Program-made: the position numbers and the translations under genes | Origin: Candidatus Baltobacteraceae bacterium | GTDB lineage: Bacteria > Vulcanimicrobiota > Vulcanimicrobiia > Vulcanimicrobiales > Vulcanimicrobiaceae | DNA length: 64,000 bases | Assembly: GCA_035502855.1 (NCBI GenBank) | Contig: DATJTX010000031.1 | Coordinates: 124,001 to 188,000, forward strand | Direction of reading: 5' to 3' | The notes under the pieces: generated by a model | Told to the model about the DNA's origin: nothing | Databases searched by the model: none | What the model saw: the letters and a program-made list of their open reading frames with translations, nothing else | Part shown: piece after piece, positions 14,582 through 18,384 of the stretch | Layout: each line of letters starts with the position of its first letter | Numbering within the stretch: the first letter of the stretch is position 1

Positions 14582-15111
14582 GACTTCCCGCCCGCACGAT
14601 CTTGATTCTGGCCGCGATCGCGATCGCGGTGGTGATCTTGGTGCCGCTCTTCCGCACGCAAAACGCGGCGGCGGTTGGTCCGTCGGCGATGGTCGGTCAA
14701 ACGGCGCCGGTTCTCGATTTGCGTGACGATCATGGGAACGCGGTCTCGCTCGCGCAGTATCGCGGCAAGGTCGTCGTGATGAATCTCTGGGCCTCGTGGT
14801 GTCCTCCGTGCCGTGCCGAGTTGCCCGATCTGCAGACCGTGGCGCAAGAATACGCCAAGGACGGCGTCGTGATCGTGGGCGTCAATCAGGGCGAATCCCC
14901 GCAGCGCGCAGCCGCGTTCGCGCAATCGCTCGACATTCATTTCCCGATTTGGATCGATGACGCGCAGCGCTACGGCCGCGTCTACGCGGCGCTCGGCTTG
15001 CCCACCACCGTCGTAATCGATCGCCTCGGCGTCGTTGCCCGCGGCTTCGACGGACCGCTCACCATCCAGCAGATGCGTTCGGCCATCGCGGGCGTGCTTC
15101 GCGCCACGTGA
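14578..15111 (+). CDS. TlpA/ResA-like thiol-disulfide oxidoreductase
   Basis: 177 residues from GTG 14578. An N-terminal signal-anchor helix (about 6-25) is followed by a thioredoxin fold of the AhpC/TSA-Redoxin type. The active site WASWCPPCRAE has C75 and C78, and the cis-proline loop is GLPTTVVID. Such proteins reduce disulfides outside the inner membrane, most often for cytochrome c maturation or envelope proteins. It overlaps both neighbours by 4 bases, so the membrane protein downstream is a likely partner. Confidence 0.92.
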   Translation: MRLPARTILILAAIAIAVVILVPLFRTQNAAAVGPSAMVGQTAPVLDLRDDHGNAVSLAQYRGKVVVMNLWASWCPPCRAELPDLQTVAQEYAKDGVVIVGVNQGESPQRAAAFAQSLDIHFPIWIDDAQRYGRVYAALGLPTTVVIDRLGVVARGFDGPLTIQQMRSAIAGVLRAT

Positions 15112-15971
15112 ACGGGCCCGCTCTCGGTGCTACGCTCGTCGTCATCGCAGTGGTTTGTCAAGTGCTGCTGCCCGGCCGCGCCGTCTATCACGCCGGCTGG
15201 TACAGCGTCGTGCTGGCGGCGATTGCGATATGGAGCATGGTGCGCCTGGGCCGATCGCCGCTGATTGCATTCGGGCTTGGTGCGATCGCGTTTGCCGGTA
15301 TTGCGAGCGGATTGCTCGGCCCCGACACGCGGACGGTGCTGGGTGCGCCCGGAACGAGCGTACGCGTCGATGAGTTGGGCGCAAGCCTCGCTTTTCCCCT
15401 CTTACAACACGGTGACGCGCCGGTTGGGCTCGTGCGTGGAAACAGCGCGCAGCCGATCGACACGCAGCGGTACACGTCGACCGTGCTGCTGCGCGCGGTA
15501 ACCCGTACCGTTGTCGCCATCGAGGCCTTGGATCGGCGCGGTGCGCATCTGACGATCACGCAGCCAACCGGGATCGCGTTTCTTTCGCCGGTGCTACTGA
15601 TGCAAGATCAGCAAACGATCGCGGGGCTCACCCTGCCGTATGACTCGTTTGCGGTGCCGGCGGCGCATCGTATCGTAAAGACCGTGCTCTTCACCGCCCG
15701 AGAGGCGGAATCGCTGCCTGCGCTGGCTTCGCTGCATGGGCCGGCGGTGCTCTTCGACGTCGAGGACGACTCCGGCGCGTCGATTCCGCATGGCATCAGC
15801 GTTGCCGCCGGCGGCGGAGAGGTGGAGGTGGCCGGATTGCGTCTGCATCCCACCGTGCTCGACTATCCGGCGATCGAGATGATATCGATCCCGGATCTGG
15901 CCGTAGTCGCTGCCGGGCTCCTTGCAATTCTCATCGGCTTGCTCTTGACGCGCCGCCGCAAGCCGGGGTAA
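15108..15971 (+). CDS. Membrane protein with large extracytoplasmic domain
   Basis: 287 residues from GTG 15108 (GTGA overlap). About three N-terminal helices (LGATLVVIAVVCQVLL, WYSVVLAAIAIWSMV, LIAFGLGAIAFAGI), a beta-rich domain of about 170 residues, then a last helix (LAVVAAGLLAILIGLLL) with a basic RRRKPG tail. The layout recalls ResB-like cytochrome c biogenesis proteins, but no diagnostic residue is visible, so I leave it unnamed. Linkage to the TlpA-like gene suggests an envelope redox or assembly role. Confidence 0.72.
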   Translation: MNGPALGATLVVIAVVCQVLLPGRAVYHAGWYSVVLAAIAIWSMVRLGRSPLIAFGLGAIAFAGIASGLLGPDTRTVLGAPGTSVRVDELGASLAFPLLQHGDAPVGLVRGNSAQPIDTQRYTSTVLLRAVTRTVVAIEALDRRGAHLTITQPTGIAFLSPVLLMQDQQTIAGLTLPYDSFAVPAAHRIVKTVLFTAREAESLPALASLHGPAVLFDVEDDSGASIPHGISVAAGGGEVEVAGLRLHPTVLDYPAIEMISIPDLAVVAAGLLAILIGLLLTRRRKPG

Positions 15972-15974
15972 GAT
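15945..15974 (+). promoter_or_regulatory. Promoter of the proC leader
   Basis: TTGACG (15945-15950) and TAAGAT (15969-15974) are 18 bases apart, giving an expected transcript start near 15981, only about 3 bases before the leader-peptide ATG. It overlaps the end of the upstream gene. This would make proC separately transcribed from the thioredoxin operon. Confidence 0.55.
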
Positions 15975-15983
15975 CGGCCAACG

Positions 15984-16046
15984 ATGTTGAACGTGTACGT
16001 TCTGCCGTGCCCGCCGCAGCCGCATCAGGAGATGCCGGTCCGGTAG
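15984..16046 (+). CDS. Proline-rich leader peptide, 20 aa
   Basis: A 20-codon frame with ATG at 15984 and TAG at 16044-16046. Five codons are proline, all CCG, at positions 8, 10, 11, 13 and 18, in the stretch LPCPPQPHQEMP. There is no strong ribosome site, and the predicted transcript start lies about 3 bases upstream, so translation may be leaderless. It sits just upstream of an intrinsic terminator and then proC, the last proline-biosynthesis gene. That arrangement is expected of a leader peptide sensing charged tRNA-Pro. Its reality is inferred from context. Confidence 0.6.
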   Translation: MLNVYVLPCPPQPHQEMPVR

Positions 16047-16090
16047 CGCGCGTCGTCAAGCAACTGCAACGAGCCGCTCCGTTTACCGGA
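16039..16090 (+). promoter_or_regulatory. Putative antiterminator pairing of the proC attenuator
   Basis: Bases 16039-16046 (TCCGGTAG, including the leader stop codon) can pair over 8 bp with 16083-16090 (TTACCGGA), ending in one G-U pair. This uses the loop and first right-arm bases of the terminator, so the two folds exclude each other. A ribosome waiting at Pro codons 8-13 would leave 16039-16046 free. One that reaches the stop would cover it. Confidence 0.5.
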
Positions 16091-16105
16091 GCGGCTCGTT
16101 TTTTT
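16070..16105 (+). terminator. Rho-independent terminator/attenuator before proC
   Basis: A perfect 12-bp GC-rich stem, 16070-16081 with 16087-16098 (CGAGCCGCTCCG and its complement), has a 5-base TTTAC loop and is followed by seven T (16099-16105). It ends 13 bases before the proC ATG, and the proC ribosome site (GAGGG, 16110-16114) lies after it. proC mRNA carrying that site must therefore read through or start inside the hairpin. Confidence 0.9.
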
Positions 16106-16118
16106 ATTCGAGGGCATC

Positions 16119-16853
16119 ATGCGAATCGGAATCATCGGCCGTGGAACCTTGGGCAGCGCACTCGAGCGAGGCTTCGAGCGTCATCCGCACGTGCGCGCGA
16201 TCGATGGGACCACGCGTGCTTCCTCGGCGCGCAATCGGGACGTCGCGGAGGCGAGCGACGTGGTCGTTGTCTGCGTCAAGCCGCGTGACGCGGCCGAGGT
16301 CTGTACCGGGATCGCGCCGGTCCTGCGCAACGATCAGGTGTTGGTCTCCGCCGTCGCAAGCGTCGATACCGCGGCCCTGCACTGCTGGACCGGCCGCCGT
16401 ACACGCATCGTGCGGGTGATGCCCAACACGCCGGCGCGGGTTACCTCGGCGATGACCGTTCTCGCCCGCACCCACGAAAGCTGCGAAGAAGCGCTCGAAC
16501 AGACGCGCGAGCTTTTCGAGAAGTGCGGCCGTACGCTGGTCCTCGACGAATCGCTGATGGACGCGGTCACCGCGATCAGCGGCTGCGGTCCCGCCTTCAT
16601 CTTCGTTGCAATCGAGGCGCTGATCGACGCCGCGATCGCGCTCGGCATTCCCTACGAACACGCCCGCGTGCTGGTCGCTCAAACCGTGCTTGGTTCCGGG
16701 CGGCTCGTCTTGGAGGGCGACGCGCATCCCGGCGCACTCAAACACGAAGTCACCACGCCTGCCGGCCGCACGATCCGCGGTCTCCTCGAATTGGAAGACG
16801 GCAAACTCCGCGCGACCTTGATGAAAGCCGCAATCGCCGCGGCTCAGCGCTAG
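16119..16853 (+). CDS. proC: Pyrroline-5-carboxylate reductase
   Basis: 244 residues. It catalyses the last step of proline synthesis, reducing pyrroline-5-carboxylate with NAD(P)H. The N-terminal Rossmann motif is GIIGRGTLGSAL, followed by VMPNTPARV, SGCGPAFIFV, and the C-terminal HEVTTPAGRTIRGL. This is slightly short for the family (usually about 260-275) but complete. ATG 16119 has GAGGG 4 bases upstream. Immediately preceded by a terminator and a Pro-rich leader frame, so expression is probably controlled by attenuation. Confidence 0.95.
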   Translation: MRIGIIGRGTLGSALERGFERHPHVRAIDGTTRASSARNRDVAEASDVVVVCVKPRDAAEVCTGIAPVLRNDQVLVSAVASVDTAALHCWTGRRTRIVRVMPNTPARVTSAMTVLARTHESCEEALEQTRELFEKCGRTLVLDESLMDAVTAISGCGPAFIFVAIEALIDAAIALGIPYEHARVLVAQTVLGSGRLVLEGDAHPGALKHEVTTPAGRTIRGLLELEDGKLRATLMKAAIAAAQR

Positions 16854-16977: not shown

Positions 16978-18384
16978 ATGACCACCGTGGCCCAGATCGA
17001 CCTGTGGCGGCAAGAACCGTCCGAGCATCAGCAGCTCGAATTCAAAGAGGCGAAGAACCAGTACGAGAGGCGAAAGCTATATGAATACTGTGTCGCAATT
17101 GCTAATGAGGGTGGTGGCAAGCTTTTGCTCGGCATTGCGAACGGATCACCGCGAACGGTAGTCGGAACAAAAGCATTCGTAAATTTGGTAAGCATTGCGG
17201 AGGACATTTTTCAAAACGTTGGGTTTCGTGTTGATGTCGAGGAGGTGGGTCATCCTGACGGTCGTGTCCTCGTGTTCCATATTCCCTCGCGAATGCAGGG
17301 CAGCGCATACCACCTCGATGGGAAATATCTAATGCGATCGGGTTCCAGTCTTACCGCGATGTCTGAGGATCGCTTGCGCGCGATTTTCTCCGAAGGTCAA
17401 CCACATTGGGCCGAACAATTCACGCGCCAAGAGCTTACAGCCGAACAGGTAATTACGCTGCTTGACACGCAAACGTTCTTTGAACTGCTCAAGCAGCCAT
17501 ACCCGACCACTCAAGACGCAGTTCTCGAACGACTTGTTGCTGAGCATTTGATCGATGAGAGTGCGTCCGGCTATGCGATCCGTCGGCTCGGAGCGCTACT
17601 CCTCGCCAAACGATTAAGCGAATTTCCTGAGATCGCCAGGCGTGCTCCTCGGGTGATCGTCTACAACGGGATATCTAAGACCGATGTTAGGCTGGATCAG
17701 ACCGGCGAGCGTGGTTATGCAGTTGGGTTTCAGGGGATCGTTGATTTTGTCGTGTCACAGTTGCCGCAAAACGAGATCCTTGAGCAGTCGCTACGGAGGA
17801 AGATTAGACTGTTACCGGACGACGCGGTTCGCGAACTAATCGCCAATGCGCTTATTCATCAGGACCTTACGCTTACAGGCATGTCTCCAATGGTTGAAAT
17901 CTATTCAAATCGCATTGAGATATCGAACCCTGGTATGCCCGTGCTTCCCGTTGAACGTTTCATTGATGGGTACCAGTCGAGGAACGAGCGATTAGCGGAT
18001 CTTATGCGCCGCATGTCAATCTGTGAAGAACGCAGCAGCGGGGTCGACCGAGTCGTTATGGCGGTGGAAATGCATCAGCTTCCAGCTCCGTACTTTGGCG
18101 CCATTCATCAACGGACGCTCGTTACGATCTATGGACCAAGGTCATTTGATGATATGGATCGGGATGATCGGACTCGTGCTTGTTATCAGCACTGCGCTCT
18201 CAAATGGGTCATGTCGGAAAGAATGACGAATCAGTCGTTGCGTGAGCGATTTGGCTTGCCCGACGGTAAGCAGGCGATCGTTTCGCAAATCATAAAAGAT
18301 GCGATTGACGCCAAGCTAATCAAACCGGATGAGAGTGCCGGCGATTCGCGTCGGTACGCCCGCTACCTGCCCATTTGGGCCTGA
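16978..18384 (+). CDS. AlbA_2/Schlafen-type putative DNA-binding regulator with GHKL-like ATPase domain
   Basis: 468 residues. The N-terminal AlbA_2 (Schlafen-like) domain is marked by HQQLEFKEAKN and IANEGGGKLLLGI. The middle contains the HATPase_c_4-type block VRELIANALIHQDL, then VEIYSNRIEISNPG. The C-terminal part looks like a winged helix. Relatives are often annotated as RecG-like or transcriptional regulators and are frequent in mobile islands and defence neighbourhoods. The gene is clearly less GC-rich than its neighbours and stands alone, pointing to horizontal acquisition. Cellular role unknown. Confidence 0.85.
   Translation: MTTVAQIDLWRQEPSEHQQLEFKEAKNQYERRKLYEYCVAIANEGGGKLLLGIANGSPRTVVGTKAFVNLVSIAEDIFQNVGFRVDVEEVGHPDGRVLVFHIPSRMQGSAYHLDGKYLMRSGSSLTAMSEDRLRAIFSEGQPHWAEQFTRQELTAEQVITLLDTQTFFELLKQPYPTTQDAVLERLVAEHLIDESASGYAIRRLGALLLAKRLSEFPEIARRAPRVIVYNGISKTDVRLDQTGERGYAVGFQGIVDFVVSQLPQNEILEQSLRRKIRLLPDDAVRELIANALIHQDLTLTGMSPMVEIYSNRIEISNPGMPVLPVERFIDGYQSRNERLADLMRRMSICEERSSGVDRVVMAVEMHQLPAPYFGAIHQRTLVTIYGPRSFDDMDRDDRTRACYQHCALKWVMSERMTNQSLRERFGLPDGKQAIVSQIIKDAIDAKLIKPDESAGDSRRYARYLPIWA

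Follow-up and report, generated by a model that had tools for sequence, protein, structure and literature searches.

The well-known leader-peptide attenuators sense tryptophan, histidine, leucine, threonine, phenylalanine or the branched-chain amino acids. Systems of this ribosome-mediated kind (trp, his, leu, thr and pheA type) share with the locus described here a leader peptide with codons for the pathway product, three mutually exclusive RNA structures and a terminator placed before the gene. In Firmicutes, proline genes are preceded by tRNA-Pro T-box leaders, in which uncharged tRNA-Pro causes antitermination. Both this input and this outcome match those proposed for the proC leader, but a T-box binds the tRNA directly, without translation.

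Proline codons inside an attenuator are found in the Salmonella leaders mgtP (mgtCBR) and mgtL (mgtA), which are induced as charged tRNA-Pro falls and lose this response when the Pro codons are replaced (PMC3641672). These leaders differ from the proC leader in controlling Mg2+ transport genes and are unrelated to it in sequence; mgtP also has a Shine-Dalgarno-like site. Mycobacteria have leaderless polycysteine attenuators, according to a citation in PMC13236596; in the way proposed for the proC leader, these short ORFs start without a leader, carry codons for the pathway product and act as attenuators. They differ in preceding cysteine genes and in having no conserved terminator hairpin in their leaders (PMC1262725).

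The word “proline” does not occur in the attenuator survey PMC2965389 or in the actinobacterial attenuator survey PMC1262725. Our search of the open-access literature turned up no report of proline-sensing attenuation at a proline-synthesis gene, in agreement with the initial annotation of this DNA, which named no such case for proC. We report a leader, in a member of the Eremiobacterota, in which translating ribosomes very probably attenuate proC transcription in response to proline. Its mechanism would work like trp/his-type attenuation; it differs from those systems in its Pro codons before a proline gene, its predicted near-leaderless ORF and its host, and the Pro leader on a proline gene appears to be the new part.

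Organization of the proC leader

The window, i.e., the whole 64-kb stretch of DNA analysed, comes from a host genome of 3.33 Mb in 39 contigs. The following features were located in it:

15945..15950, + strand: -35 box TTGACG (sequence; TTGAC at the same place in most proC leaders)
15969..15974, + strand: -10 box TAAGAT (sequence; TA...T conserved in the proC leaders of relatives)
15984..16046, + strand: leader peptide ORF MLNVYVLPCPPQPHQEMPVR followed by a stop codon, 20 codons, near-leaderless (sequence; Pro conservation in 21 leaders)
16006..16052, + strand: hairpin 1:2, covering the Pro codons as well as the TAG stop (folding, covariation)
16035..16089, + strand: antiterminator 2:3, 16035-16056 with 16069-16089, 18 pairs (folding, swap test, compensatory changes)
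16068..16105, + strand: intrinsic terminator 3:4 with seven T (sequence, folding, covariation)
16110..16114, + strand: proC ribosome-binding site GAGGG (read from the sequence), 3' of the terminator
16119..16853, + strand: proC, pyrroline-5-carboxylate reductase, 244 aa (PF14748; TIGR00112)

The promoter boxes, separated by 18 bases, the 20-codon frame with five CCG codons (four of them within codons 8–13), the terminator and a proC ribosome site lying only beyond it had all been proposed in the initial annotation, and each was located again here. The CCG codons are numbers 8, 10, 11, 13 and 18. The leader ORF begins with an ATG at 15984, 9 nt past the -10 box and about 3 nt past the predicted transcript start, and ends with TAG at 16044-16046. 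Between it and the proC start codon (ATG at 16119) stands the terminator, whose G+C-rich core is a perfect 12-bp stem (16070-16081 with 16087-16098; 14 bp when two A-U pairs are counted), with the seven T directly 3' of it at 16099-16105. The gene was identified as proC by TIGR00112, at 215 bits against a cut-off of 196.75, in addition to the PF14748 match. An upstream ORF at 15108-15971, without a Pfam match, reaches into the promoter, a feature absent from the initial annotation: the -35 box sits within its 3' end and the -10 box overlaps its stop codon. Directly 3' of proC, an ORF at 16978-18384 (+) combines Schlafen AlbA_2 and RecG-C-terminal-like domains and is a putative regulator.

We screened the window, blind to amino acids, for units of a TA...T motif 6–11 nt before an ATG or GTG, an ORF of 8–40 codons, a terminator and a gene. 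Across both strands of the 64 kb, a single unit was recovered, and it was the proC leader. Four Pro codons within six codons occurred in only 2 of the window's 245 ATG ORFs of 15–30 codons. The leader RNA folds at -66.4 kcal/mol, compared with -51.4 kcal/mol for shuffled sequences (z = -3.9; none of 200 shuffles as stable).

Conservation and distribution of the leader

ProC was present in 34 of 99 genomes of the family, both by protein search and by Pfam, and about 20 family genomes from many related genera share the same leader architecture. Eighteen of them have the identical order of promoter, start codon 9–10 nt past the -10 box, Pro-rich ORF of 20–22 codons, terminator, ribosome site and proC; divergent forms occur in G048 (MITLRRPQFPPCWKERVPQG) and G047 (MFCAAALRQLPPPPYHPVRRRIALSAT). 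The leader was missing in 11 of 31 assessable proC-bearing genomes, three further genomes being too fragmentary to score. On the ProC tree, the leader label required 4 changes, as against 10.7 with shuffled labels. A ProC search of assembled contigs gave only two distant relatives, both without a leader. Two genomes contain more than one unit: G078 carries a second proC with a g11-type leader beside its own different one (G078:C211 L049; G078:C160 L016), and G033 has three proC-leader units (C11, C35, C157), for which transfer, duplication and contamination are all possible.

A covariance model built from the 18 leaders was run on 149 genomes of the phylum. It returned 21 matches at 70–124 bits, which include the 18 source sequences by construction, and every one lay directly upstream of proC. 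Nothing scored between 70 and about 33 bits in the 149 genomes (next best 32.5); among the matches below this, those whose loci were retrieved were read one by one and comprised many unrelated terminators or coding stretches and several of the sister leaders described below.

To compare leaders across genomes, codons were numbered backward from the stop codon. Codon -10 is Pro in all 21 leaders (CCG in 10, CCT in 9, CCC and CCA in one each); Pro also stands at codons -8 and -13 in 19 leaders and at codon -11 in 15, so that the cluster of four Pro codons seen at codons 8–13 of the window leader is conserved across the set. N-terminal codons vary freely. Since Pro is invariant through all four synonyms, which RNA structure alone would not predict, the ORF is most probably translated. 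The initial annotation had named, as evidence that would tell against an attenuator, relatives that keep the terminator and lose the reading frame or its Pro codons; every promoter–terminator–proC unit keeps a short ORF with at least three Pro codons. The distance from the -10 box to the start codon is 9–10 nt in typical proC leaders and 6 nt in the divergent G047, and the proC leader ORF is essentially leaderless with respect to the transcript start predicted from this spacing.

Three mutually exclusive RNA structures

Hairpin 1:2 and the terminator were supported by covariation across the 18 sequences: 95.5% of cells were paired, compared with 39–50% when partners were slid. Two-sided changes were found in 13 of 26 pairs, and the covariation score exceeded that of all 500 shuffles. 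Covariation was present in the terminator stem itself.

The antiterminator is built from the segments CCGGU/ACCGG, CGG/CCG, AGCG/CGCU, GC/GC and UCGU/ACGA, and in folding calculations it forms when the 5' part of the leader is hidden and the 3' arm of the terminator is incomplete. Its pairing explains the conservation of GTAGCGC at and after the stop codon. The initial annotation had placed the alternative structure in an 8-bp pairing of 16039-16046 with 16083-16090. This pairing is present, including one G-U, but the 18-pair structure is favoured over it, and we retain the shorter pairing only as an alternative register.

Compensatory changes across genera were seen in the antiterminator at -5 (U-A to C-G), -4 (U-A to A-U), -3 (C-G to A-U or G-C) and -1 (G-C to A-U). 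Cognate antiterminator partners had a mean of -21.5 kcal/mol, compared with -18.2 kcal/mol for partners swapped between genera. With nine genera, a fraction of 0.00025 of the permutations did as well as the cognate pairing, and with seven genera a fraction of 0.006; both values are approximate because the compared sequences are related. Column counting in alignment A2 gave only one antiterminator pair with a two-sided change, since indels in the loop misalign the columns; the antiterminator claim therefore rests on the swap test, column counting being weaker. As judged by this comparison of predicted structures, the three mutually exclusive structures are conserved, all with compensatory changes, and the antiterminator is exclusive both with the terminator and with the hairpin over the regulatory codons. 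The alignment of relatives suggested in the initial annotation thus shows both conserved Pro codons and compensatory changes in the structures.

Stalled-ribosome folding and the proposed mechanism

In the folding model, the ribosome footprint was removed from the RNA and 7 nt of the terminator 3' arm were taken as transcribed. For the window leader, the terminator probability was 0.00–0.02 with the A site at codons 7–15 and 0.77–0.99 elsewhere, including at the stop codon and with no ribosome. The expectation of the initial annotation that stalling at Pro codons would free the antiterminator is supported by this result and by the covariation. Of the five Pro codons, numbers 8, 10, 11 and 13 fall within the modelled antitermination window, and Pro18 lies outside. 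The antitermination window coincides similarly with the Pro cluster in G056, G035 and G078. The pattern was robust to footprints of 10–16 nt and narrowed as more of the 3' arm emerged, and dinucleotide-shuffled versions of region 2 attained the observed antiterminator score in 0–2% of trials for six leaders. In total, 18 of 22 leaders switched in the model, from the antiterminator with a stall on the regulatory codons to the terminator with the ribosome at the stop codon. No switching was observed at the modelled snapshot in the other four: G001 (the nearest relative), G053, G048 and G047.

We propose that transcription starts about 0–3 nt before the ATG, so that the ribosome would load on a transcript with almost no leader. 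With ample charged tRNA-Pro, translation would proceed to the stop codon or the ribosome would leave; either the ribosome would then cover region 2 or hairpin 1:2 would sequester it, and the terminator would form before proC. Hairpin 1:2 would thereby keep region 2 from the terminator in the absence of a stalled ribosome. If charged tRNA-Pro runs low, a stall at codons 8–13 would hide the 5' arm of hairpin 1:2, and the freed region 2 could pair with the terminator 5' arm, the loop and the start of the 3' arm, allowing read-through into proC. The attenuator interpretation is strongly supported by comparison, and proline supply is the signal that the codons point to.

Alternative explanations

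The Pro-rich ORF might sense slow Pro-Pro bond formation, as under EF-P shortage, polyproline arrest or low Mg2+, and not proline supply. PP does occur in most leaders, and an influence of EF-P is known for the Pro-rich leaders of mgtA and mgtB (PMC6460261, PMC5299641). However, the G078 leader MFARFSPAPAPTPHRRMPVR (PAPAPTP) has no adjacent prolines while keeping alternate Pro codons and both pairings, the controlled gene makes proline, and the codons of sister leaders (Trp/Tyr, Thr or Phe) fit the pathways that they precede, so we consider this explanation unlikely. An RNA sensor that needs no translation, be it a riboswitch, a T-box or a protein-bound leader, could also act here, with the ORF incidental; the nucleotides near the hairpin and the stop codon are indeed strongly conserved. 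These bases are, however, accounted for by pairing and codons, and Pro encoded through four synonyms needs translation. No Rfam family reached its gathering score in the window; the weak matches were unrelated sRNAs far below their cut-offs, and no T-box was found among Rfam matches up to E = 1. Such a sensor therefore seems very improbable.

The terminator could also simply end the transcript of the upstream gene, with the proC promoter beyond it and the ORF there by chance. The upstream ORF does stop only 98 nt before the terminator, and two other proC genes (L025, L027) have a promoter directly upstream. Yet here a conserved promoter precedes the leader ORF, conservation extends jointly to the ORF, the hairpin, the antiterminator and the terminator, and the roughly 13 nt from the T run to the proC start are too short for a promoter, leaving this explanation with almost no likelihood. 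On this evidence, T-box, riboswitch, polyproline arrest and plain end-of-gene terminator were rejected in favour of the proline-responsive attenuator.

Proline metabolism in the family

At the cut-off used, ProA was missing in the host genome and in 97 of 99 family genomes (present in two), and ornithine aminotransferase was present in the host genome. Judging from gene content, ornithine appears to be the main source of proline in this family. Among genomes without proC, 47 of 65 have an ornithine cyclodeaminase; among those with proC, it occurs in 7 of 11 without the leader compared with 3 of 20 with it (Fisher P 0.013 for the latter two groups). This gene content suggests that most genomes with the switch probably depend on ProC, supplied from ornithine, as their sole proline route.

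Sister leaders for other amino acids

Similar near-leaderless ORFs precede genes of other amino-acid pathways:

L053, L054, L060, L061, L096, L105, L107, L191-L193, L195-L209: aromatic leaders before DAHP synthase
G000:C37:33291-33332 (L129), minus strand: Thr leader MISMFVSTTTTTTTTTTVVRCRVDVG, 26 codons, near-leaderless, in the same genome as the window

ORFs rich in Trp, Tyr and Phe were found in 18 of 20 DAHP synthase upstream regions from family genomes, with clusters such as YSYWWY, WWW and YWYWF; the distance from the -10 box to the start codon is 7–10 nt, their 5' ends being predicted from this spacing. In most of them, antitermination in the model falls in a window that overlaps the aromatic codons or borders on them. 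The aromatic leaders span many genera of the family, and terminator-like hairpins are present in most. The Thr leader has ten consecutive Thr codons, followed by a terminator-like hairpin and then by thrC, identified as threonine synthase by TIGR00260 above cut-off. In another family of the order, a near-leaderless Phe leader, MIVQRERFARFFFGRRPRTPVG, precedes pheA (L104, G130), and a similar ORF with fewer Phe codons occurs at L212 (G128); no such leader was found at the pheA upstream regions sampled in the host family (f1). A possible Cys-codon leader, MISLAVRACASCLRIDPDTA, lies before a cysH-like gene in G086 (L057, G086:C1:51007-51129); the cysH frame appears shifted near its start.

Because the codons of these sister leaders follow the pathway, they lend independent support to the proC leader as a proline sensor. 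It is reasonably likely that in the Vulcanimicrobium family (Eremiobacterota) one design, a leaderless pathway-codon leader peptide (Pro, Trp/Tyr/Phe, Thr, Phe, perhaps Cys) with a terminator, controls much of amino-acid synthesis; the proC switch would be the first attenuator specific for proline on a gene of proline synthesis. The family includes a cultured relative, Vulcanimicrobium alpinum WC8-2, and the set is directly testable. An attenuator that senses proline and controls a proline gene would fill a gap among these systems, in a phylum about whose regulation very little is known. The predicted near-leaderless start, common to the proC leader and the sister leaders, suggests that attenuation can be driven by ribosomes initiating right at the transcript end, a point of interest for transcription–translation coupling in this phylum.
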